A stretch of 45,832 bases of DNA from a virus. Shown here in pieces: positions 5,111-45,832 of the stretch. How positions within the stretch are numbered: the stretch's first letter is position 1; every line of letters begins with the position of its first letter. The notes below the pieces were generated by a model. The model was not told where the DNA came from. It ran no database searches and saw only the letters and a list, made by a program, of their open reading frames with translations. The position numbers were made by a program, and so were the translations under genes. The stretch spans positions 1-45,832 of the IMG/VR virus record IMGVR_UViG_3300047508_000112. One strand, given 5' to 3'.

Positions 5111-6318
5111 GCCCGATGCCCACAGCGTTTCCGGTTCAACCGGATGTCCCATACGGGATGGAAGGCGGTCGTCACGAGTTGCCGGGCATCACTGTGGCCA
5201 ACATCCCGCCCCCGCCGGATGAGATCAATCTCGACGCGCCTCCCCCACGCGCGCCGTATGGGATGGATCCGAACGTTCGGCACGTTCTCCCGGGTATCAC
5301 ACGCCTACCGCCACCCACGGCTCCGGTGGACGATGAATCGCAATACCTGGACGAGCACGGTAACGAGTACGGCATCTCGTTCAAGGACCCGACCACGGGT
5401 CAGCGGATTACCCTCCGTCCGAACCTCGAGAACTCGGAGCAAGTACGCGCGAAGAAGATTCACGCTCTCGGTAGTGCGCTGATGGATCACGCCCATACCG
5501 AAGCAGAGAAGGTGGCTGCGGAGCGCGCAGCGGCATGGGGCCTAGCGCAGGCGGACACCGATGTTCCCATCGAGCACGTCATCGCGAATATGGATGCCTC
5601 CTATCGCAAAGATACCGGGTACGAAGCCGCGCTATCCAAACAGACACTCGCGAACCAGGGCAAGCTCGATGCGGTCCATGCAAGGTTCCCATGGGGCACC
5701 GGAACGGGTGGAGGGACCAATCTGAAGCAGGACAAGTTCGACCTCCAGGAGAGCCAGGGCTACACGTCCGACCTGTCCGGCCTGGTGGAAGCGGAGCGCA
5801 AGAACTACGACTTCAAGGCCAACCAAGCCACGCAACAGGCTACGCAGAAGATGCTGGCGATGATGAACTCTGGCAATGCTCTTGCCCAACGAGTAGCCGT
5901 GATGCAAGAGCTGAAGGAGCTGACCGGCAAGCAGCAGACGGCTCGCGAACAGGCCGCAATTGCGAACGCAGCCGGTGTGATGGAAGCGTGGATGAACGAC
6001 TGGGCGCTCAAAATCCCGGGGGCGGACCCGCAGCTCAGTGAAAGTTATCGCAGAAAGTTCATCGAAGCACTCCAGATCGCTCAGCAGACCGCGCAGCAGA
6101 CTATGGCCGACCTCGGCGAATCCGGGGTGAATGCCTTGAAGACGGCACCGTTCTATCAGCGTATGTCCCCCGAGGAGCGGGCAATGGCTGAGGCGCATGT
6201 TCGTGGGCGACTGTCGGGTAAGTTCGACCTGCCGCAGGAGAACAACGGCATTACGTTCGGGCAGCCCAAGCCAAAGCAGGCTCCCAAGAAGTACAATATC
6301 GGTGACATCGTCAAATGA
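5107..6318 (+). CDS. Hypothetical virion protein with internal PYGM...LPGI repeats
   Basis: The open frame extends upstream to 4957, but the start is placed at ATG 5107 because it overlaps the previous stop as ATGA and the upstream part is antisense-like filler. The 403-residue product begins with a Pro-rich region holding two copies of a PYGM-x5/6-H-x-LPGI element (near residues 15-30 and 48-65), followed by long Ala/Gln/Lys-rich helices. No enzyme motif was seen. It ends in an ATGA overlap with the largest ejection gene, so the four genes 3234-8963 look like one translationally coupled unit. Confidence 0.7.
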   Translation: MSPMPTAFPVQPDVPYGMEGGRHELPGITVANIPPPPDEINLDAPPPRAPYGMDPNVRHVLPGITRLPPPTAPVDDESQYLDEHGNEYGISFKDPTTGQRITLRPNLENSEQVRAKKIHALGSALMDHAHTEAEKVAAERAAAWGLAQADTDVPIEHVIANMDASYRKDTGYEAALSKQTLANQGKLDAVHARFPWGTGTGGGTNLKQDKFDLQESQGYTSDLSGLVEAERKNYDFKANQATQQATQKMLAMMNSGNALAQRVAVMQELKELTGKQQTAREQAAIANAAGVMEAWMNDWALKIPGADPQLSESYRRKFIEALQIAQQTAQQTMADLGESGVNALKTAPFYQRMSPEERAMAEAHVRGRLSGKFDLPQENNGITFGQPKPKQAPKKYNIGDIVK

Positions 6319-8963
6319 TCACCGAGGACATCTATAACCACCGGAACGACATCCTGAAGCAGGGCACTCCCGAGCAGCAGGCGAAGTTCCGTGCGATGGT
6401 AACGGAATACGAGAAGAGTAAGGGACCGAGCAAGGAATCACTGCCGCTAGCGGTCCAGGTGGCGCAGTTTCAGGAGCGGCAGCCGCAACAAGGTGCTGGG
6501 GCGAACGTGCTGGAGGCTGAGGGCCATGAGGCTCCTCCGGATGTTATCCCAAACGAAGGCACACGTACGGACTTCCAGGCCGCTCAGCCCGCTCCGTCCC
6601 CGACATCGCAGGAGCTTGGAGTATCGAACGACTGGCTCGCCAATACGCCGCCGCTAGCAGACAGCGCTCGTGTGCCTGGTCCGGCAGAAGGCATCTCGGT
6701 GCGCGCGGGACAGTCGATCTATACGAGCCAGCACCCGACTCGTCTGTTCGATGAATCATTGCCCAACGCTTCAAAGCTCAAGAAGTTCCAGGAGCCACCG
6801 GAATACTCTCCGCCCGGAATGCACCTGCCGGACTATGTCGGCGGCTCGACGGTGCACCTCCATGAGCCGAGCCATGATCAATTCGAGGCGGATATGGGGC
6901 CAATCCTCCATGCGCGGGGCATTCCAGCTGACCCCAGGGATGGGCGGTACCAGGAACTATACTCTGAGTATTCAGACAAGCAGTACGCGGATGCCTATAA
7001 ACATGCGGTAGATACCGGTACCCCGATCGTGCGAGTGGACTACGTGCTCCAGCATAACAAGGGCATGGGCGCGCTCGCTGACTATCTAGCCGCGAAGGGT
7101 ACCGCCAAGGCCATGACCTTCTCAGAGGGCTTCATGAACGGGCTGGTGCCCGGGAGTACGGCGGCTCTCCTGGGGGCCGCTCAGCCACTGACGGACCAGC
7201 CCCTACTAGACCAATACCGCGAGGGCCAATCGGCCAATCCCATCACCGCCGGTATCGGGACACTTGCTGGCGCAGCGCAACCCGGATCGCTCATGGGTGA
7301 GGCTGCCGGAGGGATTGCGAGGGGCGTCGGGATGGGCTCAGGAGCCCGCAGGATTGCGGGGGCAGCAATGGGCGGAGCCTGGGGTGGTGTCGGCGCGGCA
7401 GCTCTCCAGGGCGCATCTGAGGGCTCTGGGGTCGACGAGATCATAAACGACGCCAGCAACGCGGCCCCCATCGGGCTTTTGCTCGGAGCGGGCGGGCAAG
7501 CGCTCGCTGAAGGGGCAGGAGCGTACCGTGCGCATGTTCGCCGTGGTCCTCTCGCCAAGGAGCTGGGCAATGCCGAGAGGGCAGGGGTGGCGACGGATGC
7601 GTTCCGCGGGCTCAAAGCCCCAGATGCGATGAACGCAGCGATCGAGGAAGCTCGCCCTCCCGTGCCGGGCGAGCAGAAGAGCTACTTCGAGGGCTCCCCG
7701 GTGGAGTACCAGGCCCGCAAGGTGGAAGGTCCGCTCTCGGAAGCCAACGCTCAGGCGATCAAGGACGAAAAGATCCGCCAGCAGAACGAGACTGCTCAGT
7801 TCGTCCAGCAGAACCCACATCTGACGACGCCGCGCCCGATGAAGGCGACCGTCCAGACGGCGGTGAAGCTGCTCGAGGAGCTGTCCGTACCCGAAGCCCG
7901 AGGCGGCCAGTTCCCACCGAGCGCCGGAGCCGCCCTTCCCGGGCGCAGCAATGCCGCCCTGGCAAAGTTCGTAGAGGGTTCTGTCAAGCCCGAGCTAGTC
8001 CTCGCGACGAACGCCGACAAGGCCGGCATGGAGGCCTCAGGAGCCATTGCCGCCATCCCGCTCCAGCAGGCTCGTGAGATGGGCATCGACGTGGACAAGC
8101 TCGTCAAGGGCCTGCCTCCGCGGGACACGAGAGCCTCGTTCATTGCCGGCAACCACGGCGACCCCAGTGCGACGAACAACGTCCGGGGTACCTCCTCGGA
8201 GGACGCGCTGAAGGTGCTCCTGGTCCCGCGCACGTACGACGCGCAGACCATGGACACCCAGATCAAAATCCTGGACGACCTCGCCAAGGAGGGCTCGAAG
8301 GGGAAGCCCGACTTCGTATGGGACCGGCTCCACGCCGCCGCCCGAGAGGACCGTGGGCAATTCGGGGAGGGGTGGAAGAAGCTAAAGGAAGCCCAACACG
8401 AGCGCATGTCGACCCTCGAGCAGCGCGCGGCCGACGCTGGTCTGCCAGCGGGTGACCTGACCCAGCCGAACGATGTGAAGGCATTCCGCTCAGCCCTCGA
8501 GCAATCCGGGAGCCCTAAGCAGGCCGCAGCCACCAAGGAGGCTCACCTGTCGCTGGCCGAACAAGCCGGTCAGCGCCGGGGATTGGGTCTGCTTCAGGGG
8601 CAGCGGGCCTACGACGCCCTGAAGTCGTCGACCAAGATCAACGCCAACCCCATCGTGACCTCCGGAGGGGCCTACGAGCGCCTGGGAAACCTTGGGTCAG
8701 CGGCATCCCTGCGCCTCGATGCGGTAGCGCGAGCGCTGGCTAGGAACCCCGAGGGGCTGTCGTCCATCACGACCCGGGAGATCGGTCCCGAGCTAATGGC
8801 CACCATCCGGCAGATGTCCAGCGGAGCCAGGCTACCGCCATCGGCGGTGGAGCACGCTCCCCCGGGGGCGTTCATGAACATGTTCGGCCTGGGGGGCGGA
8901 GGGCTTGGCGTCCGGGCTGCGCAAGTGTACAGTTCCACGGGCCGGGATTTGCTCTCGGACTAG
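6315..8963 (+). CDS. Large ejection-type protein; in-frame TAG with open frame to TAA at 9023
   Basis: The 882-residue product has a charged N-terminus, a Gly/Ala-rich weakly hydrophobic segment at about residues 275-372 that could insert in a membrane, and a long helical C-terminal half. This size and design resemble large podoviral ejection proteins (for example P22 gp16), but similarity is by architecture only. The frame ends at TAG 8961-8963. The same frame then stays open for 19 codons (DIANLLTLIKAHGGNAEAR) to TAA 9021-9023, one base before the next ATG. Since neighbours are packed with 0-4 nt between them, the ancestral end was probably 9023. Recent nonsense mutation, sequence error or amber readthrough are all possible. 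Confidence 0.75.
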   Translation: MITEDIYNHRNDILKQGTPEQQAKFRAMVTEYEKSKGPSKESLPLAVQVAQFQERQPQQGAGANVLEAEGHEAPPDVIPNEGTRTDFQAAQPAPSPTSQELGVSNDWLANTPPLADSARVPGPAEGISVRAGQSIYTSQHPTRLFDESLPNASKLKKFQEPPEYSPPGMHLPDYVGGSTVHLHEPSHDQFEADMGPILHARGIPADPRDGRYQELYSEYSDKQYADAYKHAVDTGTPIVRVDYVLQHNKGMGALADYLAAKGTAKAMTFSEGFMNGLVPGSTAALLGAAQPLTDQPLLDQYREGQSANPITAGIGTLAGAAQPGSLMGEAAGGIARGVGMGSGARRIAGAAMGGAWGGVGAAALQGASEGSGVDEIINDASNAAPIGLLLGAGGQALAEGAGAYRAHVRRGPLAKELGNAERAGVATDAFRGLKAPDAMNAAIEEARPPVPGEQKSYFEGSPVEYQARKVEGPLSEANAQAIKDEKIRQQNETAQFVQQNPHLTTPRPMKATVQTAVKLLEELSVPEARGGQFPPSAGAALPGRSNAALAKFVEGSVKPELVLATNADKAGMEASGAIAAIPLQQAREMGIDVDKLVKGLPPRDTRASFIAGNHGDPSATNNVRGTSSEDALKVLLVPRTYDAQTMDTQIKILDDLAKEGSKGKPDFVWDRLHAAAREDRGQFGEGWKKLKEAQHERMSTLEQRAADAGLPAGDLTQPNDVKAFRSALEQSGSPKQAAATKEAHLSLAEQAGQRRGLGLLQGQRAYDALKSSTKINANPIVTSGGAYERLGNLGSAASLRLDAVARALARNPEGLSSITTREIGPELMATIRQMSSGARLPPSAVEHAPPGAFMNMFGLGGGGLGVRAAQVYSSTGRDLLSD

Positions 8964-9423: not shown

Positions 9424-10227
9424 ATGCCCGGCTTCCCCGCTTCAGGAGTAGGATTTCCAGCGGCCACTACCTTCCCCGGGTCTACCAAGTGGCCGCCTGG
9501 TAATATTTTCCCGGACGGGGTTGCCGTGCACCCGTCTCCGCTATCGATCATCACGAGTGTCCCTGTATCTCTGTGGTCGCAAGCTGATCTAGACGTGATC
9601 CTGAACAGCGGTCACGTGTCGGCGTGGGGCGATCAGAGCGCAAACGCCAACCACTTCACCCAATTTACCAGCACCCAGCAGCCGCTGTTCACGGCTTCCG
9701 ACGCGACGCTGGGCAATCAACCCACCATCACCAGTGATGGTGTTGACGACTGGATGGAGTCGGCTCTAGCGCGTCCGGCTTCCGGCACCACCCCGTGCTT
9801 CATTAGCGCGATCATCAAGCAGGTCACCTGGTCTGCATCGGGCCGGGTAATCATCGGGGACGCGACGAGCCAGAAGTTCATCATCAACCAGAACACAGCT
9901 ACGCCGCAGATAGCGCAGCAGGGTACCGCGGGCGTAAACCTAAACAACGGCTTGGCGGTGAACACTTGGGGCAGACTCGAGATCAACTTTGCGGCTGGGG
10001 CCAACAGCTACACCAAGCTAAAGGCGAATAAGGTTCAAAGCGGCAGCTCTGAGGGTGGCGGAGCCGCTGGGGGGTCAGCGGTTCGCCTGTTCACCTCCTC
10101 CACGGCCGCAGCATTCACGAACATTGCCATTTTCGGAGTTGTCATCTGTGCCGGGACTCCGACTCCAACTGAAATCACCAACCTCGACGCCTACTGGACG
10201 AGCAAGACCATTGCGGGGCTCGTATGA
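9424..10227 (+). CDS. LamG/concanavalin A-like lectin domain protein, tail-associated
   Basis: The 267-residue product carries the typical start of a LamG/ConA-like jelly roll: VSAWGDQSANANHFTQ, then QPTITSDGVDDWM (about residues 60-110), which in the family reads W-x-D-x-S-x2-N...P...F/S-D-G-x-D-D-x-L/M. The rest is beta-rich and ends with a PTPTEI...LDAYW segment seen at the end of such domains. Known members bind or process carbohydrates. With the adjacent SGNH esterase it suggests a host-glycan recognition module. It ends in an ATGA overlap with the esterase gene. Confidence 0.7.
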   Translation: MPGFPASGVGFPAATTFPGSTKWPPGNIFPDGVAVHPSPLSIITSVPVSLWSQADLDVILNSGHVSAWGDQSANANHFTQFTSTQQPLFTASDATLGNQPTITSDGVDDWMESALARPASGTTPCFISAIIKQVTWSASGRVIIGDATSQKFIINQNTATPQIAQQGTAGVNLNNGLAVNTWGRLEINFAAGANSYTKLKANKVQSGSSEGGGAAGGSAVRLFTSSTAAAFTNIAIFGVVICAGTPTPTEITNLDAYWTSKTIAGLV

Positions 10228-11234
10228 CCGTCGCGCGAATTTATACGACGCAGGGCGCTGCGATCGAGACCCGCAGGATCATTGGCAAGCTCGAGTCATC
10301 CGCTAAGATCGGAACCAAGGCGGGAGGCGGCTCTCGGATCACGGTACAGTCTACTTGGGACGGCAAGAATGCGCCTCCCATAGGGTGGACATGTCACGAT
10401 GTGCGGCTCATCAGCAAGGACGCGAGCAACTGGGCGACCGAGATCACTACCCAGGTCATCACGGACTCAGCGGACGGCACACATCGGGCACGCTGTACAA
10501 CGGCGGAATTGGTCATCCTGGATGATGCGGTAACGAACCGAGTAACCCTAGATGGCACATGGGCCACTGCGAACAGGATCTCGGACAAGCTACTGCGGGT
10601 ATACCTATGCCTTGGATTTGGGCAGAGCAACGCCGTGGGTCAGTTCCAGATCGGGAGCGCGAACCAGCTCGCATTTCTGGCGGCGCTCAACCCGGGAGCG
10701 CTCGTGGTGTTCGGCGCAGGCGCGGCGGGCGGAACGCCGATCACGGACGCAATCCGCGGTGCGTTCGGTGACGGCCTGAACTACGCTACGACGCAAATTT
10801 CCCCGGCCCTGGTCACGCTGGATGCAGCGGCGCCCACTACTGTTCCTCTCCACATTCTCTGCAATCAGGGCGAGTATGAGGCTGCTGGTAACACGAGCAC
10901 TGGACCGAGCGGCACGGTAGACTTTTCTAACTGGGCCACGACATTCGCTCAGGTGATCGCCGACATTCGCGCGCAGGTAAGCGCGGCGCGCCCGTTCATC
11001 CTCCACATTTTCAAGCTTAACCCTAACCAGAACTTCCCTCCGACCGACCACTTGACGGCGATCCGGACGCAACAGGACTCTGCCGCGTCAGGCTACAGCG
11101 ACGCGAACGGCGGCGTCGGGCTCACGTACAATATGGATGACATCACGCCCGATGCGCCACCGCACTACAGCGACCCGCACTATGTCCTGATGAACCAGCG
11201 CGGGGCGGCGCAGGTAATCGCCAATCAGGCCTGA
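10224..11234 (+). CDS. SGNH-type carbohydrate esterase (sialate O-acetylesterase-like)
   Basis: The 336-residue product has an N-terminal beta domain of about 120 residues and then an SGNH hydrolase core. FGQSNAVG gives the nucleophile Ser at about 135, NQGEYEA (about 214-220) matches the W/N-x-Q-G-E-x-D/E-A block, and SDPHYVLMNQRGAAQVI (from about 316) supplies the DxxH-like catalytic pair, here DPH with His 319. These blocks fit the SASA/SGNH family that removes O-acetyl groups from sugars. A tail enzyme deacetylating host capsule or O-antigen is inferred from gene position. It starts inside the previous gene (ATGA). Confidence 0.75.
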   Translation: MTVARIYTTQGAAIETRRIIGKLESSAKIGTKAGGGSRITVQSTWDGKNAPPIGWTCHDVRLISKDASNWATEITTQVITDSADGTHRARCTTAELVILDDAVTNRVTLDGTWATANRISDKLLRVYLCLGFGQSNAVGQFQIGSANQLAFLAALNPGALVVFGAGAAGGTPITDAIRGAFGDGLNYATTQISPALVTLDAAAPTTVPLHILCNQGEYEAAGNTSTGPSGTVDFSNWATTFAQVIADIRAQVSAARPFILHIFKLNPNQNFPPTDHLTAIRTQQDSAASGYSDANGGVGLTYNMDDITPDAPPHYSDPHYVLMNQRGAAQVIANQA

Positions 11235-11236
11235 CA

Positions 11237-11587
11237 ATGGCGCATCCCCGGGTTCTGCTGGTGGATGACGACACGACACTGCTGGCAGCGCTCGTTCGGA
11301 CGCTCACTAAAGCCTGCCACCTCCGTGTTCTTGTGGCTTCGAGCCCGGACCAAGCCCTAGACTACCTGAGTGCGGCAAAGTTCAACCTGATCGTCGTGGA
11401 TAAGACGCTACCCGGAATCTCCGGGACATCGCTCCTGGCCCTATGTATCCAGAGCTACCCAGACATGAAGCGCATAGTCTACAGTGGTGATCTGGCCCTC
11501 CAGGAGCCCCTGGCGCATGCTGTGCTGTTCAAGGGCGGGCCACCTACCGAGGCCGCGAAGGTGATCTGTGAGTGGGCGTATGCCTGA
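11237..11587 (+). CDS. Orphan response-regulator receiver (CheY-like) domain
   Basis: The 116-residue product is one complete REC domain with no output domain. Landmarks are all present: acidic pocket D10-D12 (VLLVDDD), phospho-acceptor D55 (LIVVDKTLPGISG), the conserved Ser/Thr at S83 (IVYSGD) and Lys K99 (LFKGG). In bacteria such domains accept phosphate from histidine kinases. Here the gene stands alone after tail esterase and before a membrane/coiled-coil gene, 2 nt after the esterase stop. No kinase was seen in the window, so it would need a host kinase; interference with or use of a host two-component system is inference. Confidence 0.85.
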   Translation: MAHPRVLLVDDDTTLLAALVRTLTKACHLRVLVASSPDQALDYLSAAKFNLIVVDKTLPGISGTSLLALCIQSYPDMKRIVYSGDLALQEPLAHAVLFKGGPPTEAAKVICEWAYA

Positions 11588-11927
11588 TGGTCGTTACTCC
11601 AAGATCCACGTGGAGTCCGATTCGGAGTTGCTCTCGGACGCGGCACAGGTGCGAGCGATGAAGGGCGGGTCCCTCGGCTTTACCATCGGCACCAACTCTC
11701 TCGTGGCTCTCATCGTTGGGGTGTTGACATGGTACTTGACGCATCAAGCTGCACCCCCTAACTGCGCGAGCAAGGAGGACATCCTCGCTCTGGACGGGAA
11801 GGTCGGGGCGCTCCGGCAGGACATGATCACCCTGAACCAGGGGACCAGTAAGACCATTAGCGACACCAAGAACGATCTCCTCATCGAGATGCTGAAGATG
11901 CGTCAGGACCTGGCTGCAAAGCGTTGA
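11580..11927 (+). CDS. Single-TM protein with coiled-coil tail, possible spanin or holin-associated
   Basis: The ATG at 11580 overlaps the stop of the receiver-domain gene; a GTG at 11568 in the same frame is an alternative. The product (about 115 residues) has a short charged N-terminus, one membrane segment (SLVALIVGVLTWYL), then a charged heptad-like helix (ILALDGKVGALRQDMITL...). N-in/C-out topology with a periplasmic coiled coil is the layout of inner-membrane spanins, but no partner is adjacent, so the role is open. Its 3' end overlaps the minus-strand Trp-rich small gene tail to tail. Confidence 0.65.
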   Translation: MPDGRYSKIHVESDSELLSDAAQVRAMKGGSLGFTIGTNSLVALIVGVLTWYLTHQAAPPNCASKEDILALDGKVGALRQDMITLNQGTSKTISDTKNDLLIEMLKMRQDLAAKR

Positions 11928-12039
11928 GTTCATCTGTCCACAAGAAGTCTAGGCGCGAGCTGACGAACCACTGATACCAGCCGTAATTGCGCATCTTCCA
12001 GCGTGGCGGGTGCCACTCCCAAATCGGCAGGCGTCTCAT
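11881..12039 (-). CDS. Tryptophan-rich 52-residue protein, unknown
   Basis: The last gene of the leftward arm. Its ATG overlaps the helicase stop as ATGA (12036-12039). The 52-residue product has six Trp in the first 34 residues (starts MRRLPIWEWHPPRWKMRNYG) plus several Arg, and no membrane segment. Its final 47 nt run antisense through the 3' end of the TM/coiled-coil gene at 11580-11927. Coupled start, clean frame and unusual composition favour a real gene, but antisense chance cannot be excluded. Confidence 0.5.
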   Translation of the reverse strand: MRRLPIWEWHPPRWKMRNYGWYQWFVSSRLDFLWTDELNALQPGPDASSASR

Positions 12040-13670
12040 GCCTTTAGCCTGACCTTTCTGTTCTCAAGGTCCACGTGAAGCCTCCCTGGGTTCCATGAGA
12101 CCTTCGCGCACAGGTCCAGAATCTTACGAGCCGAGTCGAATCGTACGGAGTCCGATGGGATGCCCATGCGCTTTAGCTGGATGGTCTGCTTGTAGGTCGC
12201 CAGCCCATCCCTGCGGCGCTTGACCAGGACCTTGAGCATCTCCTTGGCCTGACGTTGGGAGAACTTGTCGGCGTCCGTAACCCCGAGGTTCTTCAGAGCC
12301 GCGAGCTGGCCAGATGTGGCTTTCTTTGCCCCGAACCTCGCATCACCCCTTGCCGCTTTCTCGCCCTCCTCCGGGGCTATACCAGCGAAGGGATCGAACC
12401 TCGTGACCTGGGCGGTGACCCGGGACTTGAGGCGCCTGGCGGCCTCCTGGAGGCGCTGTCGGGCCTCGGCGAGGGACTCGAGCACGTCGATGCCCGGACG
12501 GTCCTTCTGGACCTTCTTGGCCTCTGCCTTCTCGTCCTCGGAGTACGCCACCCCGAGTAGGTCCTCGGGGCCCACAAGTCGATGACGACCGCTATTTCCT
12601 ACAAAATCCAGAATCGTGCAAAATGGCTTCGCGGATCCGGCGATCAAGTGTTTGCGAAGTGGGGCCTCGTCCCGATTCGGTGCGCAGGTGATGAGACCCG
12701 GTAGTACACGGGTTCCCCGACCGCATCCCTGAGCGTAGACATTCCTCGATAGTGTCGGCCGCGCTCCAATGATGAGCGCCACATCCGGGAAATCAGCGCC
12801 CTTAGAAACGATCCCGACGTTAAAAAGGCGACGGAATTCTCCTGACTTAAACTTCGCAATGGTCTCCCTCCGTACAACTGGGTCGGTGAAGCCCGAGACG
12901 AAACAGGTGCTTCCCGGGTCTAGGGCGTTAGCTCGCTCGGTAGCGTACTCAGCGCTCTTGACGCCCGGGAAGAACCCGATCGCACGTTTCTCTGGGTGTA
13001 GCTCGAGAGTCTTCTTGACGATGCCCTCCACGCTCCGGAGCATGACCTCGTCAAGCTGGCCCTGGACCAAGTCCCCCGAGGTGGTCGACACCCCCGTGAG
13101 GTCGATCTCGTTGATGTGAACCTGTTCCCCGACGATGGGAACGAGGTAGCCGTTCTCGATGCCCTCCACGATGTCCATGCAGTACGCGACGGACTGGTAG
13201 ACCGACACCAAGCCCTTCTTGTCGTGGCGGTCCGGCGTAGCGGTAACGCCGACACGCTTGCACCGGAACGACTCGATGACCTCGCGGTATGTCTTGGCCA
13301 GCGAGATGTGCGCTTCGTCAACGACCACGAGCGAGAACCGGTCGAGCCCCAGCCGTTCCCGACGGAGCTTGTTCGCGAGGGTCTGGAGCGAGCCGATGAC
13401 CAGCCGGCAGGAATGGGATGCCCGCCTGTCAGCTTGCTCGATCTCCACCCTCTCACCCGTCGCCCGCTCGAGGTGGCCCTGCATCTGGTCGAGCAGCTCC
13501 TCCCGGTCAGCGAGCACCAGGACATCGCCCTCCCTGCGCCTCGCCAGCTCCCCGATGATGACCGACTTGCCGAGTCCGGTGGCCATGACGAGCAGCGTGG
13601 AGTCGACGGTGTCCAGCTCGCGCTCGACGGCCTCAACGGCTTCTTGCTGGTACCAGTAGAGGTCAGGCAC
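12036..13670 (-). CDS. SF2 DEAH-box helicase
   Basis: The 544-residue product shows the SF2 helicase motifs in order: motif I ATGLGKS (30-36), DEAH (118-121), TATP (143-146), and motif VI QGCGRGTR (314-321), followed by a C-terminal extension of about 220 charged residues. The start is GTG 13670 and lies 8 nt inside the preceding small gene. Family members unwind nucleic acid using ATP; in phages such a helicase commonly serves replication or recombination. It is the only helicase in the genome and follows the ERF/nuclease genes in the same arm, which fits a recombination-dependent replication role. Confidence 0.85.
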   Translation of the reverse strand: MPDLYWYQQEAVEAVERELDTVDSTLLVMATGLGKSVIIGELARRREGDVLVLADREELLDQMQGHLERATGERVEIEQADRRASHSCRLVIGSLQTLANKLRRERLGLDRFSLVVVDEAHISLAKTYREVIESFRCKRVGVTATPDRHDKKGLVSVYQSVAYCMDIVEGIENGYLVPIVGEQVHINEIDLTGVSTTSGDLVQGQLDEVMLRSVEGIVKKTLELHPEKRAIGFFPGVKSAEYATERANALDPGSTCFVSGFTDPVVRRETIAKFKSGEFRRLFNVGIVSKGADFPDVALIIGARPTLSRNVYAQGCGRGTRVLPGLITCAPNRDEAPLRKHLIAGSAKPFCTILDFVGNSGRHRLVGPEDLLGVAYSEDEKAEAKKVQKDRPGIDVLESLAEARQRLQEAARRLKSRVTAQVTRFDPFAGIAPEEGEKAARGDARFGAKKATSGQLAALKNLGVTDADKFSQRQAKEMLKVLVKRRRDGLATYKQTIQLKRMGIPSDSVRFDSARKILDLCAKVSWNPGRLHVDLENRKVRLKA

Positions 13671-14091: not shown

Positions 14092-14385
14092 TCAGAAATA
14101 GTTCCCTTCCGGTGTGTCAATGATGGCCTGGGTCTCCGCTACCATGCGGTCCTGCCATTCCCTGCGCTCCGAACGTGACCAATCCTTGAACGGCCCTCGC
14201 CCGTCATGAAAAGCCCGGTGACACTCGAAGCAAAGCGGCATTGCATCCCGATCCGCAGCGCGGCGGCCAAACGCACGGCGGTGAGTGTGGTGATGCGGCT
14301 GACTGGGCGGAGATGCCCGGCAACCCTCGACCGCACAAGACAGCTGCCGGACTCGAGCGAGGTAAGCTTTGTCATCGTCAGCCAC
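14092..14385 (-). CDS. HNH-type / YbcO-like zinc nuclease
   Basis: The 97-residue product has a Cys pair (C17, C22), a His cluster (PHHHTH, 30-35), an acidic/Asp segment (RAADRDAMPLC) and a second cluster C52, C55, H56, H60 (LCFECHRAFH). This order C-C...HH...D..PLC..CH...H is that of HNH-like recombination nucleases such as YbcO/Ref types. It probably cuts DNA or aids recombination. GTG start with GGAGG 7 nt upstream on the minus strand. It follows 12-bp repeat array 1, which separates it from the RecB-like gene. Confidence 0.65.
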   Translation of the reverse strand: MADDDKAYLARVRQLSCAVEGCRASPPSQPHHHTHRRAFGRRAADRDAMPLCFECHRAFHDGRGPFKDWSRSERREWQDRMVAETQAIIDTPEGNYF

Positions 14386-14395
14386 CTAGCCTCCA

Positions 14396-14455
14396 CCCCA
14401 CGCGATCCCACACGCGAGCCCGCACGCGAGCCCCCACGCGAGCCCCCACGCTCTC
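14396..14455. repeat. 12-bp tandem repeat array 1 (5 units)
   Basis: Five imperfect copies of CCCCACGCGAGC lie between the stop of the RecB-like gene and the start of the HNH-type gene. The right flank CTCGAGGCGCCTCACG contains the upstream gene's stop codon and is shared with arrays 2 and 3. Confidence 0.85.
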
Positions 14456-14463
14456 GAGGCGCC

Positions 14464-15453
14464 TCACGGCTTCCTCCACGTCGTACGGAAGTATGGGTTG
14501 CCCCGCTCGATGAACTTGGTGGCGTCGGGGTACTCGGTCAGGAGCTTCGGCAGGTTCAAGGACTCCCGCCCCTTGCATAGCCCCGGTTTGAAAACCTGAC
14601 CAGTGACAGGGTGCTTCAGGACGATGCCGCGCTTGGCGGCTTCCTTGGCGTGCTCCTTTACCTGATCGATGAGGTCGGACACTCGCTCAGCCACAAGCAG
14701 CATAGCGACCAGTTTCTCAGGGTCGAGAATCGTCTGACCTGCGATTGGCGCGAGCCACGTCTCCGCAAGATCTGCCGGAGCGAGATGTTCGGCGCAATGG
14801 AGCCGACCGTAGCAACTCCGGCAGTGCGGGCCGGTGTTTGCCTGTCCATCTGTCTGAGAAGCCGCATGCTTGATGGTCTCCCACAGCTCCATTCCTTCGA
14901 AGCTGGTCATGTCCACGATCTTGTCCGACCAGATCCATTCCCCGTCCTCGGCAATCCACAGGCCCACGGTGAACTTGTGGACCCCATTCTTCTTGGCATA
15001 TGCCCAGCCGTAGGCGAGGAGCTGCAAAGTGTCTGGGGTGGGGACGGTCCATTGGGTCTTCTTGATGTCCCCGATGTACGCTGTGTCCCCCAGCACCCGG
15101 CCCATGTCGAGCGTTCCTGAGGTCAGGCATGGGCCCTCGCTCACGTATTCGCCCTGAGTGTCCAGCCCCACGGGACACTCCTTGTCCATGTCGGCGTAGC
15201 GTAGGGTCCCGGACGACAGGATCACATCGGTCGGGGTGGGCCAGAGTGATATCTCGTTCCGCTCCTCCTGGGTTAGCGACAGGAGTTTGCGACGGGTGTC
15301 ATCGCTGCCAGGGTCGGCTTTGAGGGCATGGAAGGCCGTGGACATGGCCGCCGGCCTACCTGCCCCATGAGCCTCGGAGAGCGCGGCTGCCTTGCCGCAG
15401 AACTGGGCGATGGGCAGGAGCGAGATGCGGTTCCCGGTCTTCAGGTAGGTCAC
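14464..15453 (-). CDS. RecB/Cas4-like PD-(D/E)XK exonuclease (DUF2800-like)
   Basis: The frame is open to 15531 only because the 12-bp repeats upstream contain no stops; GTG 15453 (MTYLKTGNRI...) is preferred, giving 329 residues. Nuclease landmarks are SGTLDMG (D116), IGDIKK (D129, K131) and QLLAYGWAYA (Q144, Y148), the D...DxK...QxxxY order of RecB-family enzymes. A Cys cluster CRSCYGRLHC near residue 217 fits the zinc or Fe-S element of Cas4/DUF2800 relatives. Beside an ERF annealing protein it probably acts as the exonuclease of a two-component recombination system, as lambda Exo does for Beta; that pairing is inference. Confidence 0.75.
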   Translation of the reverse strand: MTYLKTGNRISLLPIAQFCGKAAALSEAHGAGRPAAMSTAFHALKADPGSDDTRRKLLSLTQEERNEISLWPTPTDVILSSGTLRYADMDKECPVGLDTQGEYVSEGPCLTSGTLDMGRVLGDTAYIGDIKKTQWTVPTPDTLQLLAYGWAYAKKNGVHKFTVGLWIAEDGEWIWSDKIVDMTSFEGMELWETIKHAASQTDGQANTGPHCRSCYGRLHCAEHLAPADLAETWLAPIAGQTILDPEKLVAMLLVAERVSDLIDQVKEHAKEAAKRGIVLKHPVTGQVFKPGLCKGRESLNLPKLLTEYPDATKFIERGNPYFRTTWRKP

Positions 15454-15467
15454 GGCGATAGCCCCCG

Positions 15468-15635
15468 CCCCACGCGATTCCCCACGCGATTCCCCACGCG
15501 ATCCCACACGCGATCCCCCGCGCGATCCCACACGCTAGCCCACACGCTAGCCCCCACGCGATCCCGCACGCGAGCCCGCACGCGAGCCCCCACGCGAGCC
15601 CGCACGCGAGCCCACACGCGAGCCCCCACGCACTC
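15468..15635. repeat. 12-bp tandem repeat array 2 (14 units)
   Basis: Fourteen imperfect copies of CCCCACGCGAGC, with variants ending GATC, GATT and TAGC, fill the gap between the ERF stop and the RecB-like start. Unit length of four codons and lack of stops keep several frames open through the array. Flanks match arrays 1 and 3. Confidence 0.9.
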
Positions 15636-15643
15636 GAGGCGCA

Positions 15644-16369
15644 TCACTTGCGCACCTTCAGCGCCTCGAGCGCGTCCAGCACCTTCTTGCCGCCAGCGTC
15701 GTCCGCCGAGTCCAGGTTCACGTCATGGCGTGCGGCGAACGCCTTCAGCTCCTCGGTGTTGAACCCAGCCCCCTGGGACAGGTCGAATATCTTCCGCTTC
15801 AGTGCGGAGGACATGGCCGATGGCTTGGCCTGTGTCTCGGGGGGCTTGTCCCGAGGTGGCGGAGCGGCCTTAGGGCTCGTCTGCTTCGGCGTACCAGAAG
15901 CCACATTGCCGTCGTCGTCGTCCTCGCTAGCGACGAACAAGAGCCCGCTCAGTGAGTACCGCTTGAGGTACGTGAGTGCTGACCCGAGCTTCTGTGGTGT
16001 CTCGCATTCCGGAAGCTCGATGTGCAGGGACAGCGAGGCACCCGAAGCGTGGGCGAGCTTGGTGGTTAGCACCCGCTTCTCGCCCAAGCCGTGGACGCAT
16101 TGGAGCAGACAAAGCCCGTTCGCCGACAGAACCGGGCGAGTCTTTGCGATGACCTCGCCCAGCTCGGCGTACCAGAACTTGCGCCCTGAGTATTCGACCA
16201 TCCGGGTTGTCTCGATGACGGGGAACGCCCCTTGGGCCTTGGCGAGCGCGGCATACAACGCGCCCATCTCGCCGGCCTCCTCGTAGCTGACAGCTGCCGT
16301 TAGGCGGCTCGCGTAGACGCTGCTCAACGTCGGTAGCGGCGGCTCCTGGCTCAGGTTGTTCTCGGTCAC
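15644..16369 (-). CDS. erf: ERF-family single-strand DNA annealing protein
   Basis: The 241-residue product has the ERF core: ALAKAQGAFPVIE (about 41-53), YAELGEVIAKTRPVLSANGL (67-86) and GSALTYLKRYSLSGLLFVASEDDDDG (129-154), the last being the family hallmark. A Pro/Lys linker and a small C-terminal helical domain follow. ERF of P22 anneals complementary strands and helps circularise the genome. The start is GTG in a GTGA overlap with the DUF6745-like gene upstream; repeat array 2 follows the stop. Confidence 0.9.
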   Translation of the reverse strand: MTENNLSQEPPLPTLSSVYASRLTAAVSYEEAGEMGALYAALAKAQGAFPVIETTRMVEYSGRKFWYAELGEVIAKTRPVLSANGLCLLQCVHGLGEKRVLTTKLAHASGASLSLHIELPECETPQKLGSALTYLKRYSLSGLLFVASEDDDDGNVASGTPKQTSPKAAPPPRDKPPETQAKPSAMSSALKRKIFDLSQGAGFNTEELKAFAARHDVNLDSADDAGGKKVLDALEALKVRK

Positions 16370-17316: not shown

Positions 17317-17491
17317 TTTCCAATATTCTCCCTATTCGTTGAACCAAAGAAACCTTCATCATCGCTCGCCAGACAATGTCCAGAGACCATGTGCTGGCGT
17401 CTTCGATGGCGCAGTAGTCCAAGCCACGATCTCCGCCGATGCCGTCAGCTCGTCTTCCGTGCTGGTCGATCCCGGTCTGGATCCGCCTCAA
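17309..17491 (-). CDS. Small TTG-started protein, unknown
   Basis: A TTG at 17491 preceded by AGGAG at 7 nt opens 60 codons (starts MRRIQTGIDQHG). The C-terminal half is a plausible amphipathic helix (WRAMMKVSLVQRIGRILENV). The end overlaps the ATG of the DUF6745-like gene by 8 nt and the start overlaps the stop of the Gly-Tyr gene, which fits the packing of this arm. Not recognised. Confidence 0.55.
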   Translation of the reverse strand: MRRIQTGIDQHGRRADGIGGDRGLDYCAIEDASTWSLDIVWRAMMKVSLVQRIGRILENV

Positions 17492-17751
17492 TCCCTACTC
17501 CTGATTCGTTGTGAGTTGTTTACGGAGCCGCAGCCGTCGCCGGAGCCGTAGCCGTCGCCGTAGCCGTGGCCGGAGCCGTAGCCGGAGCCGTAGCCGTAGC
17601 CGTAGCCGGAGCCGTAGCCGTAGCCGGAGCCGTAGCCGTAGCCGTAGCCGTAGCCGTCGCCGTTGCCGTAGCCGTAGCCGTAGCCGTCGCCGTCGCCGTT
17701 GCCGTAGCCGTAGCCGGAGCCGTAGCCGTAGCCGTAGCCGATCGGTAGCAT
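17488..17751 (-). CDS. Gly-X (X = Tyr, Ser, Asp, Asn, His) repeat protein
   Basis: The 87-residue product is almost wholly a two-residue repeat, Gly alternating with Tyr, Ser, Asp, Asn or His, encoded by a 6-bp tandem repeat in which Gly is nearly always GGC and the variable codon is NAC or TCC. ATG 17751 overlaps the stop of the preceding gene (TGATG); a GTG just upstream is possible. The C-terminus leaves the repeat (NNSQRIRSRD). The sequence is low complexity and likely disordered or glue-like. The array could change length by slippage without losing frame. No function is known. Confidence 0.6.
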   Translation of the reverse strand: MLPIGYGYGYGSGYGYGNGDGDGYGYGYGNGDGYGYGYGYGSGYGYGSGYGYGYGSGYGSGHGYGDGYGSGDGCGSVNNSQRIRSRD

Positions 17752-18077
17752 CACAGCCCCCAGTTATCCGACACTGGGCAACGGAAGACCTCTGCCCCCT
17801 CGGGGATATCCACCCGAGAGCATGGGCGCAGGTCGGCCTTGGCCTTCTTCGGATCTGAGATGACAGCCGCGAAACCGCCACCTGGCCACGAGAACACATG
17901 AAGCGCCCGGTCCAGGTAAATGCGCCCGTTCTCTTGGGTCACATCACCCGCGAAGATCCAGCCCCGATCGACCACGACCACGGCGCGTTTGCCGCTGGCG
18001 ACTGGAGCCAAGACGCTGTCCGCTCGCACGTACTCCACGCCGTTCAGTGTGAGCTGATTTGCTTGAATGTCGGTCAT
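17751..18077 (-). CDS. Hypothetical small phage protein (RAVVVVDRGWIFAGDV motif)
   Basis: ATG 18077 with GAGGA about 5 nt upstream gives 108 residues; an upstream in-frame ATG is inside the neighbour and rejected. The central RAVVVVDRGWIFAGDVTQEN and the following LDRALHVFSWPGGGFAAVI form a small beta domain of a kind common in phage early regions. No catalytic residues are evident. It is second in a small operon started at the promoter near 18.44 kb. Confidence 0.65.
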   Translation of the reverse strand: MTDIQANQLTLNGVEYVRADSVLAPVASGKRAVVVVDRGWIFAGDVTQENGRIYLDRALHVFSWPGGGFAAVISDPKKAKADLRPCSRVDIPEGAEVFRCPVSDNWGL

Positions 18078-18695: not shown

Positions 18696-18767
18696 CCCCA
18701 CGCGATACCACACGCGCTCCCGCACGCGATACCGCACGAGAGCCTCCACGCGAGCCCCCAAGCGCTC
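18696..18767. repeat. 12-bp tandem repeat array 3 (6 units)
   Basis: Six diverged copies of CCCCACGCGAGC sit between two minus-strand genes. Left flank GCGATAGCCTCCA and right flank CTCGAGGCGCCTCACGG match the other arrays, and the right flank again contains the stop codon of the upstream gene. Confidence 0.85.
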
Positions 18768-18775
18768 GAGGCGCC

Positions 18776-18976
18776 TCACGGGACGACCTCCACAGCATCC
18801 GATAGCACCCGGACGCTGCCACGGGGCGCACAGAGGGCGCGCGCTAGGGTTTCGTCGGTCAGTACCCGGATACCCAGGTCTGCCTCGCCCTCGGAGGTGA
18901 CGATGTGCCAACCGTTCGGCCGGCTGACCAGATAGCAACCCCGGGAGCCGAGGATGGGGAGCCGGTCAGATGTCAT
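18776..18976 (-). CDS. Hypothetical 66-residue protein
   Basis: ATG 18976 has AGGAG at 8 nt and overlaps the end of the Cys-rich gene by 11 nt. The product (MTSDRLPILGSRGCYLVSRP...) reads as a small beta domain with no catalytic motif. A longer frame upstream is antisense to the Cys-rich gene's coding and rejected. Its stop lies in the flank of repeat array 3. Confidence 0.55.
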   Translation of the reverse strand: MTSDRLPILGSRGCYLVSRPNGWHIVTSEGEADLGIRVLTDETLARALCAPRGSVRVLSDAVEVVP

Positions 18977-32696: not shown

Positions 32697-32864
32697 ATGC
32701 AAAATCCCATTGTTCGTGTACTGGAAGTGGTTGTCGTAGCCGGAGCATGCGCGGCTGTGGCTGAGTTTGTGAAGGACCAATCCTTGGCGGCGAAACTGAT
32801 CGCCGGCATCGCTGTCCTGGCGAGCCAATATGGCGTCAGTCTGCCAAAGTTCGGTGCGGCATGA
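32697..32864 (+). CDS. Holin-like small membrane protein, leaderless start
   Basis: The 55-residue product (MQNPIVRVLEVVVVAGACAA...) has one hydrophobic segment early and a second weaker one (AAKLIAGIAVLASQYGV), with a basic-free short tail. Size, membrane content and position directly before a lipoprotein and an endolysin fit a holin, the protein that permeabilises the inner membrane at the set lysis time. There is no Shine-Dalgarno; ATG lies 7 nt after the -10. It overlaps the next gene by ATGA. Confidence 0.6.
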   Translation: MQNPIVRVLEVVVVAGACAAVAEFVKDQSLAAKLIAGIAVLASQYGVSLPKFGAA

Positions 32865-33049
32865 CCAGCTCGAAAAAGCTCTTGGTAGCCAGCCTGCTGA
32901 CCGGATCGGTGATCGGCGGGTTCTTTCTGGGCCTCCAGTCCTGCGCCACGCCACCCCAGGATGCCAAGGCCGCCCTTGCAGAGACGCTCCGGCAGTTCGA
33001 CATGGCTTGCGATGTTCGCGCGCACTATCGCGATGCGGGGACTGATTGA
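32861..33049 (+). CDS. Small lipoprotein, candidate outer-membrane spanin
   Basis: The 62-residue product starts MTSSKKLLVASLLTGSVIGG followed by FFLGLQSCATPP, a lipoprotein signal with LQSC as lipobox. The mature part is short and charged. In Gram-negative phages a small lipoprotein beside holin and endolysin is usually the outer-membrane spanin; a partner inner-membrane spanin is not obvious nearby. Its TGA overlaps the TTG of the endolysin. Confidence 0.6.
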   Translation: MTSSKKLLVASLLTGSVIGGFFLGLQSCATPPQDAKAALAETLRQFDMACDVRAHYRDAGTD

Positions 33050-33648
33050 ACCTCGTCCCGGACAAGCTCACGCTGATGACGGCTCTGGATGTACTGAAGG
33101 CCATCCAGGAAGCGATGCCGGAGATGTCCAACAGCGCGGTGGCTATTCTGTGCGCACAGTCCGCGCTCGAGACTGGGCGATGGAAGAGCATGCACTGCTT
33201 TAACTTCGGCAATATCAGACCTCCGAAGGATTGGCCTGGCGACTACTGCCAATTCCGGTGCAACGAGCAGGTGAGCCCGGGGAAATGGGTCTGGTACGAT
33301 CCTCCGAGCCCTGGGTCCAATTTCCTCGCCTTCCCCGACGCTGTGACGGGCATTCGTTACTGGCTCGACAAGCTCAAGACTCGCTGGCCGGAGGCGTTCC
33401 AGGGTGCGGTAGCTGGTCAACCTGTCCCATTCGTCCATGGGCTCAAGCAACGCGGGTACTTCACGGCGGACGAAGCGCCTTACCTGAATGGGGTGCTCGG
33501 GCTGACCCATGAGTTCCTTGCTCTCCTCGCCGAGCCCGCGCCGGTCCCGGAACACGAGCCGGACTGGGATGCGATCAAGGCGTCGACCTGGATCAACAAC
33601 CTGGACGCCGATCTTGACGGGCACGGCGCATCGAACCTGAATGGCTGA
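33046..33648 (+). CDS. Endolysin, lysozyme/glucosaminidase-like
   Basis: TTG 33046 overlaps the previous stop (TTGA). The 200-residue product has CAQSALETGRWKSMHCFNFG followed by NIRP (about residues 29-52), the Glu of ALETGRW being the likely catalytic acid, and LAFPDAVTGIRYWLDKLKTR W (about 90-112), matching FlgJ-type glucosaminidases and lysozyme-fold phage enzymes that cut the glycan of peptidoglycan. No signal peptide, so release needs the holin. The end overlaps the terminase start by 8 nt. Confidence 0.75.
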   Translation: MNLVPDKLTLMTALDVLKAIQEAMPEMSNSAVAILCAQSALETGRWKSMHCFNFGNIRPPKDWPGDYCQFRCNEQVSPGKWVWYDPPSPGSNFLAFPDAVTGIRYWLDKLKTRWPEAFQGAVAGQPVPFVHGLKQRGYFTADEAPYLNGVLGLTHEFLALLAEPAPVPEHEPDWDAIKASTWINNLDADLDGHGASNLNG

Positions 33649-35170
33649 ATCGGCCATCTACGAGCCGAGCGAGTGGGGCCGGCGGTTCCACGGCATCCGC
33701 GATGCTCAGGGAAAAGTGGTACGTGAGGTGCTCGGGGCCGGCGCGGCCGGACCAGGGAAGAGCATGGTCCTGCTGATGGACCCGATCGACAAGGTCATCA
33801 TCGAGGACAAGCGCCAAAAGCTCCCGAGGAGTGACCGGCGCTGGATGCCCAGGGGCGGTTCCGTGGGATGGGCACTGCATCTTCGTCGGACACGACCGAT
33901 GCTTGAGCAGACCATCGCTCGCTCGCACCGGATGTTCAAAGCATTCGATCCCGAGGCGAAGTGGGATCAGAACAAGACGACATGGACGTTCGGCTGCGGA
34001 TATCGAGTCCAGTTCGGCCACTGCAAGGACCCCAACGACTGGGAAGCCTACATGTCGAACGAGTACGACGAGATCCTCTACGATGAGCTGGTCCAATTCG
34101 ACGAGGAGCAGTACGACCAGATCAACACTCGTCTGCGCTCGAGTGACCCGGTCCTGTCGCAGATGCTCAAGATTCGCTCCTGTACGAACCCGCTGATGCG
34201 CCGTGTCTCAGGCGAGAACTTCAGTGTCAAAAACCCGTACTGGGTGCGCGAGCGATTCGTGAAGCCCAATCCCGAGGGCGGAGTCATCTTCAAGCGCCAG
34301 CTCAAGCGCGCGGATGGCTCCGTCTACTGGCATACGTGGTGTTTCCTCATCGCTACGCTGAAGGACAACCCGGACAAGGAGTTCGTTGCCCAGTATGAAG
34401 CTCAGCTCCTATCTGCGAAGCCGCACATCCGTAATGCTCTTCTGTATGGCCGCTGGGATGCTTCGGAGCACAGTTTTTTCGACGAATGGAATGCACAGCT
34501 TCACGTCATCAAGCCTTTCAAGTGCCCGGACGATTGGACGTTCTTTCGCTCAATGGACTGGGGGTTCAAGGTACCGGGTTGTGTCCACTGGTGGGCGATG
34601 GACCCGGACGAAAACCTCTACTGTATCAAGGAACTGACGTTCAAAGGAAAGCTGGTAAACGAGGTTTGCGCGATGATCGAGGAGGTCGAGATGGACCTCG
34701 GACTCTGGGACGAGAAGCGCGACTGCTCGAGTATCACCGGTCCCGCCGACACCCAAATCTGGGGCCAGTCAGGTCAGGCGAGCGAGACGATGTACCAGAC
34801 GTTCGTCAAGGCCGGCATTCCGTGGGTGCAGGCCGACAAGAAGAGCAGGCAGACCAATGCCCAGCATCTAGCTCGGAGGCTAGCGGACCACGACAATGGG
34901 ACCAAGCAGCCGGGCATCGTATTTTTCAGCACATGCCGCAAGCTCATCGAGACGCTGCCGGCGGTTCAGTCCGAGCCCGGGGACCCCGACACGCCGATGG
35001 ACGGCGGCGAGGACCATTGGACCGACAGCGCTTGGTACGCCAGCGCGTTCGCGTCTCGTGGTAGGAAGATGATTCCGAAACGCAAGGAAGCTCCCGACGA
35101 GTGGGAGCAAGAGGTCAAGAAGTCATCGGGCCGCAAGGGCACGAGCTTCGGTTACGGAGCGCGAGTATGA
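33641..35170 (+). CDS. terL: Terminase large subunit
   Basis: The 509-residue product has the packaging ATPase: Walker A GAGAAGPGKS (32-41), Walker B EILYDE (144-149) and coupling motif SCTNP (180-184). The C-terminal RNase-H-like nuclease shows D306 (RSMDWGF), D370 (GPADTQIW) and D458/D462 (EDHWTDSAWYA). It cuts and pumps concatemeric DNA into the procapsid through the portal. The order endolysin, terminase, portal is unusual but coherent. Fits a headful packager given the apparent circular permutation. Confidence 0.92.
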   Translation: MAESAIYEPSEWGRRFHGIRDAQGKVVREVLGAGAAGPGKSMVLLMDPIDKVIIEDKRQKLPRSDRRWMPRGGSVGWALHLRRTRPMLEQTIARSHRMFKAFDPEAKWDQNKTTWTFGCGYRVQFGHCKDPNDWEAYMSNEYDEILYDELVQFDEEQYDQINTRLRSSDPVLSQMLKIRSCTNPLMRRVSGENFSVKNPYWVRERFVKPNPEGGVIFKRQLKRADGSVYWHTWCFLIATLKDNPDKEFVAQYEAQLLSAKPHIRNALLYGRWDASEHSFFDEWNAQLHVIKPFKCPDDWTFFRSMDWGFKVPGCVHWWAMDPDENLYCIKELTFKGKLVNEVCAMIEEVEMDLGLWDEKRDCSSITGPADTQIWGQSGQASETMYQTFVKAGIPWVQADKKSRQTNAQHLARRLADHDNGTKQPGIVFFSTCRKLIETLPAVQSEPGDPDTPMDGGEDHWTDSAWYASAFASRGRKMIPKRKEAPDEWEQEVKKSSGRKGTSFGYGARV

Positions 35171-35427
35171 TTTGGCTATTGGCGGCGGAGGCGTTAGTCT
35201 TCCCGCTGGTTTTTGGGATCTGGATATCCAAGGAGATCAAGAAAATGTCAGCAGCTACCGACGCACTATCAGCGAGCATCGACGCGCTCACCACGAGCGT
35301 GGACCAGCTAATCGCCAAGGCATCTACGCAGCCTCCACCGGTGGAGGACCTCACGCCCCAGGTGGTGGCCGCCACTCAGCGAGTGAATGACCTGAAGGTC
35401 AAGATCGATGCAGCGGTGGGGAGCTGA
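35167..35427 (+). CDS. Single-TM protein with coiled-coil tail
   Basis: ATG 35167 in an ATGA overlap with the terminase. The 86-residue product starts with a membrane helix (MIWLLAAEALVFPLVFGIWI) and continues as a Ser/Ala/Asp helix with heptad character, then a Pro linker and a second helix. Layout resembles an inner-membrane spanin or other lysis accessory; the terminase neighbourhood gives no further clue. Confidence 0.6.
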   Translation: MIWLLAAEALVFPLVFGIWISKEIKKMSAATDALSASIDALTTSVDQLIAKASTQPPPVEDLTPQVVAATQRVNDLKVKIDAAVGS

Positions 35428-35569: not shown

Positions 35570-35830
35570 TTGGATCCCGGCAAGCTAGCTCCAGTGGTGA
35601 CGCTCCATCATGCGGATGAGGCGGTCGTGCGTTTTTTGGAGGACCTGCTCGAGAAGGCGCGGAGCGGTGAGATTCGCTCGGTGGCTGCCGCATGGGAGCA
35701 TAAGGACGGCGACACCAACGACGGGGCATGCTTCGGTAATATGACCGGGCGATACAATATCATCGGTCGGCTCCAGGTGCTCGCTACGCAGATCGCATTG
35801 AACGACTGCCTACAATGGAAACCAAGTTGA
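35570..35830 (+). CDS. Hypothetical 86-residue protein before the portal
   Basis: TTG 35570 is chosen (MDPGKLAPVVTLHHADEAVV...), following the previous stop by 1 nt. The first half is helical (VRFLEDLLEKARSGEIRSVA), the second has TNDGACFGNMTGRYNIIGRL. Small proteins of this kind occur in several phage structural regions, but no function is known. Its TGA overlaps the likely portal ATG. Confidence 0.6.
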   Translation: MDPGKLAPVVTLHHADEAVVRFLEDLLEKARSGEIRSVAAAWEHKDGDTNDGACFGNMTGRYNIIGRLQVLATQIALNDCLQWKPS

Positions 35831-45272: not shown

Positions 45273-45832
45273 ATGCATCTGATCGCGCCTATCGTCTCGG
45301 GCATCACCGGAGCGAGCGACGGCTTCGTCCGTCTCTATCGCCGAGGGACAGCTACGCGCGCGACTTGGTATCCAGACTTCGAGGCCACCTCGAACAATGC
45401 GAGCGGCACGGACATCCCACTCGACTCGAACGGCGGAGCCACGATCTACGTGGATGAGTTGGTCGATGTGTCAGTCTACGACTCCACGGGTGAGTTGGTC
45501 CGGGGCTTCACGGCGGGCGATGCCGCTCCGGCGGTCGAGGTCATCTCCCCGTCGTTCACTGGAACTTCGTATGCAGACGGCTCAACAGGCGCAGGAAAGC
45601 CCACAACGCTCCAGGCGGCACTGGACCTGCTGGCCACGAGCTTCGGGACGACCAATTTCAAAGTGCTGGTTGGTGGGGTAGCGACGCTACTCACCACGGC
45701 GCTCGCTAGTGTCCCGAGCTACATCAACGTGAAGTCTCCAACCTACGGTGCCGTGGGGGACGGCGTAACGGATGACACGGCGGCGCTGAACGCAGCCATC
45801 GCGGCGGCAGGCTCAGCTGGAACGCTATTCTT
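45273..45832 (+). CDS. Tailspike, 5' part (continues at window position 2 after the circular join)
   Basis: ATG 45273 starts MHLIAPIVSGITGASDGFVR, an N-terminal beta region like virion-attachment domains of podoviral spikes. It continues unbroken into the repeated segment 45665-45832, which equals 1-168. In the joined genome the CDS ends at 1261 with about 550 residues. The three differences between the two copies are third-base changes and silent. Confidence 0.8.
   Translation, partial: MHLIAPIVSGITGASDGFVRLYRRGTATRATWYPDFEATSNNASGTDIPLDSNGGATIYVDELVDVSVYDSTGELVRGFTAGDAAPAVEVISPSFTGTSYADGSTGAGKPTTLQAALDLLATSFGTTNFKVLVGGVATLLTTALASVPSYINVKSPTYGAVGDGVTDDTAALNAAIAAAGSAGTLF
45665..45832 (+). 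repeat. Terminal redundancy: copy of bases 1-168
   Basis: Matches 1-168 over the full length with three transitions (T/C at 127, G/A at 130, G/A at 145 in start coordinates), all silent in the tailspike frame. Indicates a circular or circularly permuted genome of about 45,664 bp in a mixed population. Confidence 0.95.

Follow-up and report, generated by a model that had tools for sequence, protein, structure and literature searches.

A stand-alone CheY-like receiver predicted to lack helix α4 in a putative short-tailed phage, and the placement of phage receivers among membrane and lysis genes

ORF 11237..11587 (+ strand, ATG to TGA) encodes a 116-aa, CheY-like single-domain receiver, a reading far beyond chance. 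The ORF lies in a virus record of 45,832 bases and 62% GC (IMG/VR IMGVR_UViG_3300047508_000112), which was analyzed over its whole length and is here called the window. The predicted structure is without helix α4, a form that recurs in an unrelated phage, and several phage receivers are found among membrane and lysis genes. Stand-alone phage receivers are already known, podoviruses included; as far as the searched papers and databases show, it is new that two unrelated phages have an α4-less receiver and that phage receivers recur among membrane and lysis genes. Phages may recurrently use such receivers as host-charged switches late in infection, a function that we regard as putative.

A receiver domain predicted to lack helix α4

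The ORF matches the Pfam family Response_reg (PF00072) with 47.1 bits (E 3.1e-12, profile positions 1-80 of 111 aligned; the curated cut-off is 30.2 bits) and, at the sequence level, 14 distinct PDB receivers. An AlphaFold2 model calculated from 16 aligned sequences is well packed (pLDDT 94.5, pTM 0.88). Foldseek returned 587 PDB matches for this model at E up to 0.001, the matches listed being receivers, and VIA-align superimposes it on CheY4 with a Z of 19.1 (r.m.s.d. is 1.4 Å, comparing 112 residues); Z is about 19 in the comparison with CheY4/DrrB. A sequence-only reading of this DNA had described a complete receiver with all phosphorylation residues (D10-D12, D55, S83, and K99) and had called for a structure prediction. 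ORF, coordinates, and residues agree with our analysis, the acidic pair proper being D10-D11, and Foldseek and VIA-align place the prediction in the receiver fold and not outside the receiver family.

The receiver domain covers the entire ORF and is not fused to an output domain. Its codon-position GC (0.67/0.43/0.72) is similar to that of the coding neighbors, and a chance ORF is ruled out by the Pfam E-value, the fold, and this codon signature. We also rejected a fragment of some larger response regulator, because the reading frame is closed: 2 nt separate its ATG from the upstream gene, and the downstream gene overlaps its stop codon. Weak PADLOC matches (PDC-M60B, 5e-6), confined to the N-terminal half, are explained by the receiver domain. 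The window genome encodes no other receiver, and we found no match to HATPase_c or HPt in it, bearing out the view that neither a kinase nor an output domain accompanies it.

In the model, β1-α1-β2-α2-β3-α3-β4 are followed by a loop and by β5-α5. The (βα)5 fold is thus matched at the Z given above with α4 absent from the prediction: where this helix is expected, strand 78-83 leads into a loop and then into strand 95-98. The spacing between S83 and K99 is 16, versus 18-23 in 15 aligned bacterial relatives, and K99 is followed by Gly-Gly in place of the usual Pro (K-G-G instead of K-P). As α4 is missing from the model, the usual α4-β5-α5 dimer and output face is probably not used in the standard way.

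CheY, DivK, Spo0F, and EpsW share with the window protein an output-less receiver fold. The window receiver differs from such bacterial single-domain regulators by its ∼20% identity to them, by the missing α4, and by a genome that holds no chemotaxis or phosphorelay partners. The best bacterial identity is ∼39%, and 682 sampled genomes, in which only some candidates were scored, yielded no host receiver at E up to 1e-15. Recent capture of a host gene is not supported by this identity and by a GC3 like that of the neighboring genes, within limited genome samples. The divergent cREC receivers of jumbo phages, which are linked to NAD/ADP-ribose enzymes and not paired with a histidine kinase (PMC7824862), resemble our protein in being phage-borne receiver folds without a paired kinase. 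Among the part of the window ORFs that was scanned we found no NAD/ADP-ribose processing gene, and a cREC identity is not supported by context.

The end of the late gene block

The window carries a direct terminal repeat of 168 nt with 3 mismatches (positions 1-168 and 45665-45832), and the record, though held as a linear contig, is therefore probably a complete genome. Its hallmark genes encode a terminase large subunit (33641-35170), a head-tail adaptor or portal-like protein (35815-38064), a tail-spike-like protein (65-1261), an Hc3-type head closure protein (1263-2714), and an internal-virion-protein-like product (6315-8963). They fit a short-tailed phage, a morphology that we infer from these genes. 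Judged by terminase, the nearest relatives show 48-54% identity, and no close relative was found among the cultured phages searched.

In view of the terminal repeat, we read the late block from ∼32.8 kb through the genome ends to 11.93 kb. There it meets at 12036 a convergent helicase gene (12036..13670, - strand; phrog_16 DNA helicase, E 2e-73; Pfam ResIII, E 1e-26), which bounds the block, and the receiver is the last gene but one. Two genes upstream lies a virion-structural-like protein (9424..10227, +; phrog_10356, E 3e-9), and directly upstream a probable SGNH/GQSN-type esterase (10224..11234, +), which was assigned by its motifs GQSN, QGE, and DPHY, has no confirming Pfam or PHROG match, and may be tail-associated. 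The final gene (11580..11927, +), the ATG of which overlaps the receiver stop codon by 8 nt (ATGCCTGA), encodes a 115-aa protein. One transmembrane (TM) segment is predicted at about residues 32-50, and the C-terminal half is charged and probably helical. The protein has no family match in Pfam or PHROG and no relative in viral_contigs; its C-terminal half may, on the weak evidence of the positive-inside rule, be periplasmic.

The sequence-only reading had placed the receiver among tail genes. The gene indeed follows tail-like genes, but it is not embedded in them: together with the one-TM gene that it overlaps, it closes the late block on its 3' side. The label of a tail region thus misses the overlapping membrane-protein gene, and in other phages, too, the neighbors are membrane and lysis genes (see below).

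In the window itself, a lipobox-like small membrane protein of 62 aa (32861..33049, +), possibly part of a spanin, overlaps the gene of a glucosaminidase-like endolysin candidate (33046..33648, +; Pfam Glucosaminidase match weak, E 0.019) located before the terminase gene. This candidate is 35% identical to an endolysin-like protein of the contig L097 described below (E 2e-30) and 47% to one of G001, the closest terminase relative of the window; no relative was found among cultured phages. It lies ∼24 kb from the receiver along the late block, and only the 11580-11927 TM protein adjoins the receiver.

Elsewhere in the window, a second small one-TM protein with a coiled-coil-like tail (35101-35427), possibly a lysis protein, is encoded between the terminase and portal genes. 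Dense tandem repeats with 12- and 18-nt units are found at 17481-17780 and 15468-15667 within leftward ORFs, with related copies at 14384-14487 and 18696-18799; in one frame they encode Gly-Tyr-rich or Val-Gly-Ala-Arg-like repeat peptides.

Receivers in other phages

With the receiver sequence as query, no relative was recovered from viral_contigs and none from cultured phages. The nearest relative that we found, with 41% identity over 114 residues and 89.7 bits, comes from IMGVR_UViG_3300048897_000057, where two overlapping receiver genes lie in tandem (L097:5531-5980 and L097:5947-6348); it is the product of the second. Like the window protein it lacks α4, has a K-G motif, and is followed by an overlapping TM-protein gene. 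Its S/T-to-Lys spacing is 15, its model (pLDDT 95.2) is without α4, and the S/T site is occupied by Ala. The first L097 receiver has a normal spacing and is more distant from the window receiver (57.4 bits). The two L097 proteins are 42% identical to each other and would fit a duplication with subsequent loss of α4 in one copy. The gene order is endolysin-like, coiled coil, receiver, receiver, TM protein; L097 differs from the window in its two receivers, in the adjoining endolysin-like gene, and in belonging to a contig with a baseplate-wedge-like gene.

In G001, the 3' end of the late block consists of lipoprotein, endolysin, coiled-coil, and TM genes; it is interrupted by an HNH-type ORF on the opposite strand and contains no receiver. 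The slot of the window receiver thus corresponds to a lysis-type slot in the relative. The G001 lipoprotein that precedes the endolysin is of similar type to the 32861..33049 product. G001 and the window carry this lysis pair at opposite ends of the late block, so the pair has moved. The TM proteins beside the receivers of the window and L097 and in the G001 cassette have no detectable homology to one another. None of nine terminase/Hc3 relatives of the window, mostly partial contigs, was found to carry a receiver, which is hence not essential to the group.

Among cultured phages of Alteromonas, V22 gp30 and A5 gp11 have been described as CheY-like proteins of a "host recognition module" and as class II auxiliary metabolic genes (PMC7289586, PMC10579305). 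We located further stand-alone receivers in R9Y1 (R9Y1_12), R8W (gp48), H4/4 (gp44), and PB15 (a response regulator). All six lie 3' of large tail or surface genes amid small membrane or lysis genes, and 4-bp overlaps are frequent. In V22 and A5 the order is fiber, chaperone, small helical protein, receiver, Rz-like TM protein, and two-TM protein, with an amidase before the small helical protein in V22 and an endolysin after the two-TM protein in A5. R9Y1 has a tail fiber and then three genes with 4-bp overlaps, for a one-TM protein, the receiver, and a lysozyme. R8W and H4/4 share a long tail fiber, a class II holin, a one-TM protein, the receiver, a membrane protein, and TerS, in this order; in PB15 membrane proteins precede the receiver and a carboxypeptidase follows it. 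That receivers are rare in podovirus late genes, as initially supposed, is not supported in this form: A5 (Schitoviridae) and R8W and H4/4 (Autographiviridae) have stand-alone receivers in their late regions, and those of A5 and V22 had been published.

The Alteromonas-phage proteins resemble the window receiver in their full acceptor set, in the lack of a phage kinase above the cut-off, in their late position after tail or surface genes, and in the small membrane or lysis genes and short overlaps around them. They differ from it in having a normal α4 and K-P (K-S in PB15), and they share only ∼20% identity with it. Their phages infect Alteromonas and have a GC content of 38-55%, below that of the window, and the helical or one-TM partner is usually encoded 5' of the receiver, whereas it is 3' in the window. 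Three close pairs of these receivers have dN/dS values of 0.02-0.13, which indicates purifying selection on the Alteromonas-phage genes; there is no such pair for the window gene. Because the six were reached from one another by similarity, they cannot be counted as independent cases.

Each of the six cultured phages has one receiver and L097 has two, and no kinase match exceeds the cut-off in any of these records; A5 has one HATPase-like match below it. As no phage kinase was found, any phosphoryl group would come from the host or from a small-molecule donor. A conserved His in the small membrane proteins of the Alteromonas phages was considered as phosphodonor and rejected; the window protein does not share it.

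Candidate roles of the phage receivers

We tentatively favor, at somewhat less than even chances, a role of the window receiver as an output-less switch that is charged by the host or a phosphodonor and acts by protein contact with the adjacent membrane protein or an envelope/lysis component. D55 would be charged late in infection, by a histidine kinase of the host or by a small phosphodonor. The charged receiver would then bind another protein, not DNA, the likeliest target being the co-translated membrane protein of 11580-11927 or else another component of the envelope/lysis module, and lysis, or the late envelope state, would thereby be tuned to host physiology. The link to lysis is drawn from gene order only. 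The predicted receiver fold with intact acceptor residues, the lack of a kinase or HPt, the overlap with the one-TM gene, the receivers amid membrane or lysis genes in L097, R9Y1, R8W, H4/4, A5, V22, and PB15, the cassette of lipoprotein, endolysin, coiled-coil, and TM genes at the equivalent late-block end of G001, and the purifying selection in the Alteromonas phages all speak for such a switch. The distance to the endolysin candidate, the non-homologous TM neighbors, the non-independent Alteromonas cases, the nine relatives lacking the gene, and the Ala at the S/T site of the second L097 receiver speak against it. EpsW-EpsZ, in which an output-less receiver acts on a membrane protein/enzyme (PMC12802240), is a precedent.

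The complete acceptor set without kinase, HPt, or output domain would also suit a decoy of host two-component signaling, a possibility that we consider nearly as likely. The phage receiver would compete with host receivers for their kinases and so drain phosphate, or mimic one of them, with no link to lysis; it might possibly blunt or impose a late host response such as envelope stress, exopolysaccharide, or motility. That phages attack host two-component kinases has a precedent in PIT4, which binds histidine kinases of P. aeruginosa (PMC10714779). However, the putatively late expression of the window gene would be late for rewiring the host, the repeated siting amid membrane and lysis genes with overlaps would be left unexplained, and the searched bacterial sequences offer no close host receiver to mimic.

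The late-block end commonly hosts accessory genes, and a general insertion site could explain the closeness to lysis genes. The receiver might then be a passenger (moron) with a host-directed benefit or in decay, and its neighbors would be uninformative. Its absence from the nine relatives and its departures from the norm, with neither α4 nor K-P, would suit a passenger, which we nevertheless consider unlikely, as all five key residues are kept in a well packed model. Decay in particular is improbable because, in addition, a 41% identical receiver from an unrelated phage is likewise α4-less. A virion or host-recognition component, either a tail-fiber accessory or an injected protein, would account for the position after tail-like genes in the window and after fiber and chaperone in V22 and A5, and for the published placement in a host recognition module (PMC10579305). 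We regard it as very unlikely: a structural role would have no need of the conserved D-D-D-S/T-K set, a holin and a one-TM gene separate fiber and receiver in R8W and H4/4, and the L097 receivers come after an endolysin-like gene and a coiled coil.

Returning to the host-charged switch, a broader and somewhat unlikely proposition is that receiver-controlled switches of lysis or of the envelope arose repeatedly in unrelated phages, each coupling a host-charged orphan receiver to a membrane protein co-translated with it and so making the time of lysis depend on host signaling, with the window and L097 representing a phage-specific, α4-less form. The timing of phage lysis is commonly attributed to an internal holin clock. 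A receiver sited among membrane and lysis genes would let host two-component signaling act directly on a late step of the phage. A literature search on phage lysis cassettes and CheY returned nothing about a phage receiver at the level of titles and abstracts.

Some annotations of phage receivers deserve comment. R8W gp48 (L102:5001-5462) and H4/4 gp44 (L103:5001-5462) are annotated as DNA-binding response regulators, the former being named PhoB in the R8W paper, and V22 gp30 (L092:10750-11199) as a hybrid histidine kinase. Each of the three is about 150 aa long and consists of a receiver domain alone, and conclusions on phosphate adaptation that are based on the name of the R8W protein thus do not follow. 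Most receiver matches in the phage collection (records OR84xxxx, MT83xxxx, CAKLQ, and AGRM/AFYI) have the appearance of bacterial DNA filed as phage: many of these records contain receiver genes that bear typical bacterial-chromosome names (OmpR, PhoB, or GlnG). This suggests host DNA, which would inflate counts of phage receivers, and we left these matches out of our count.
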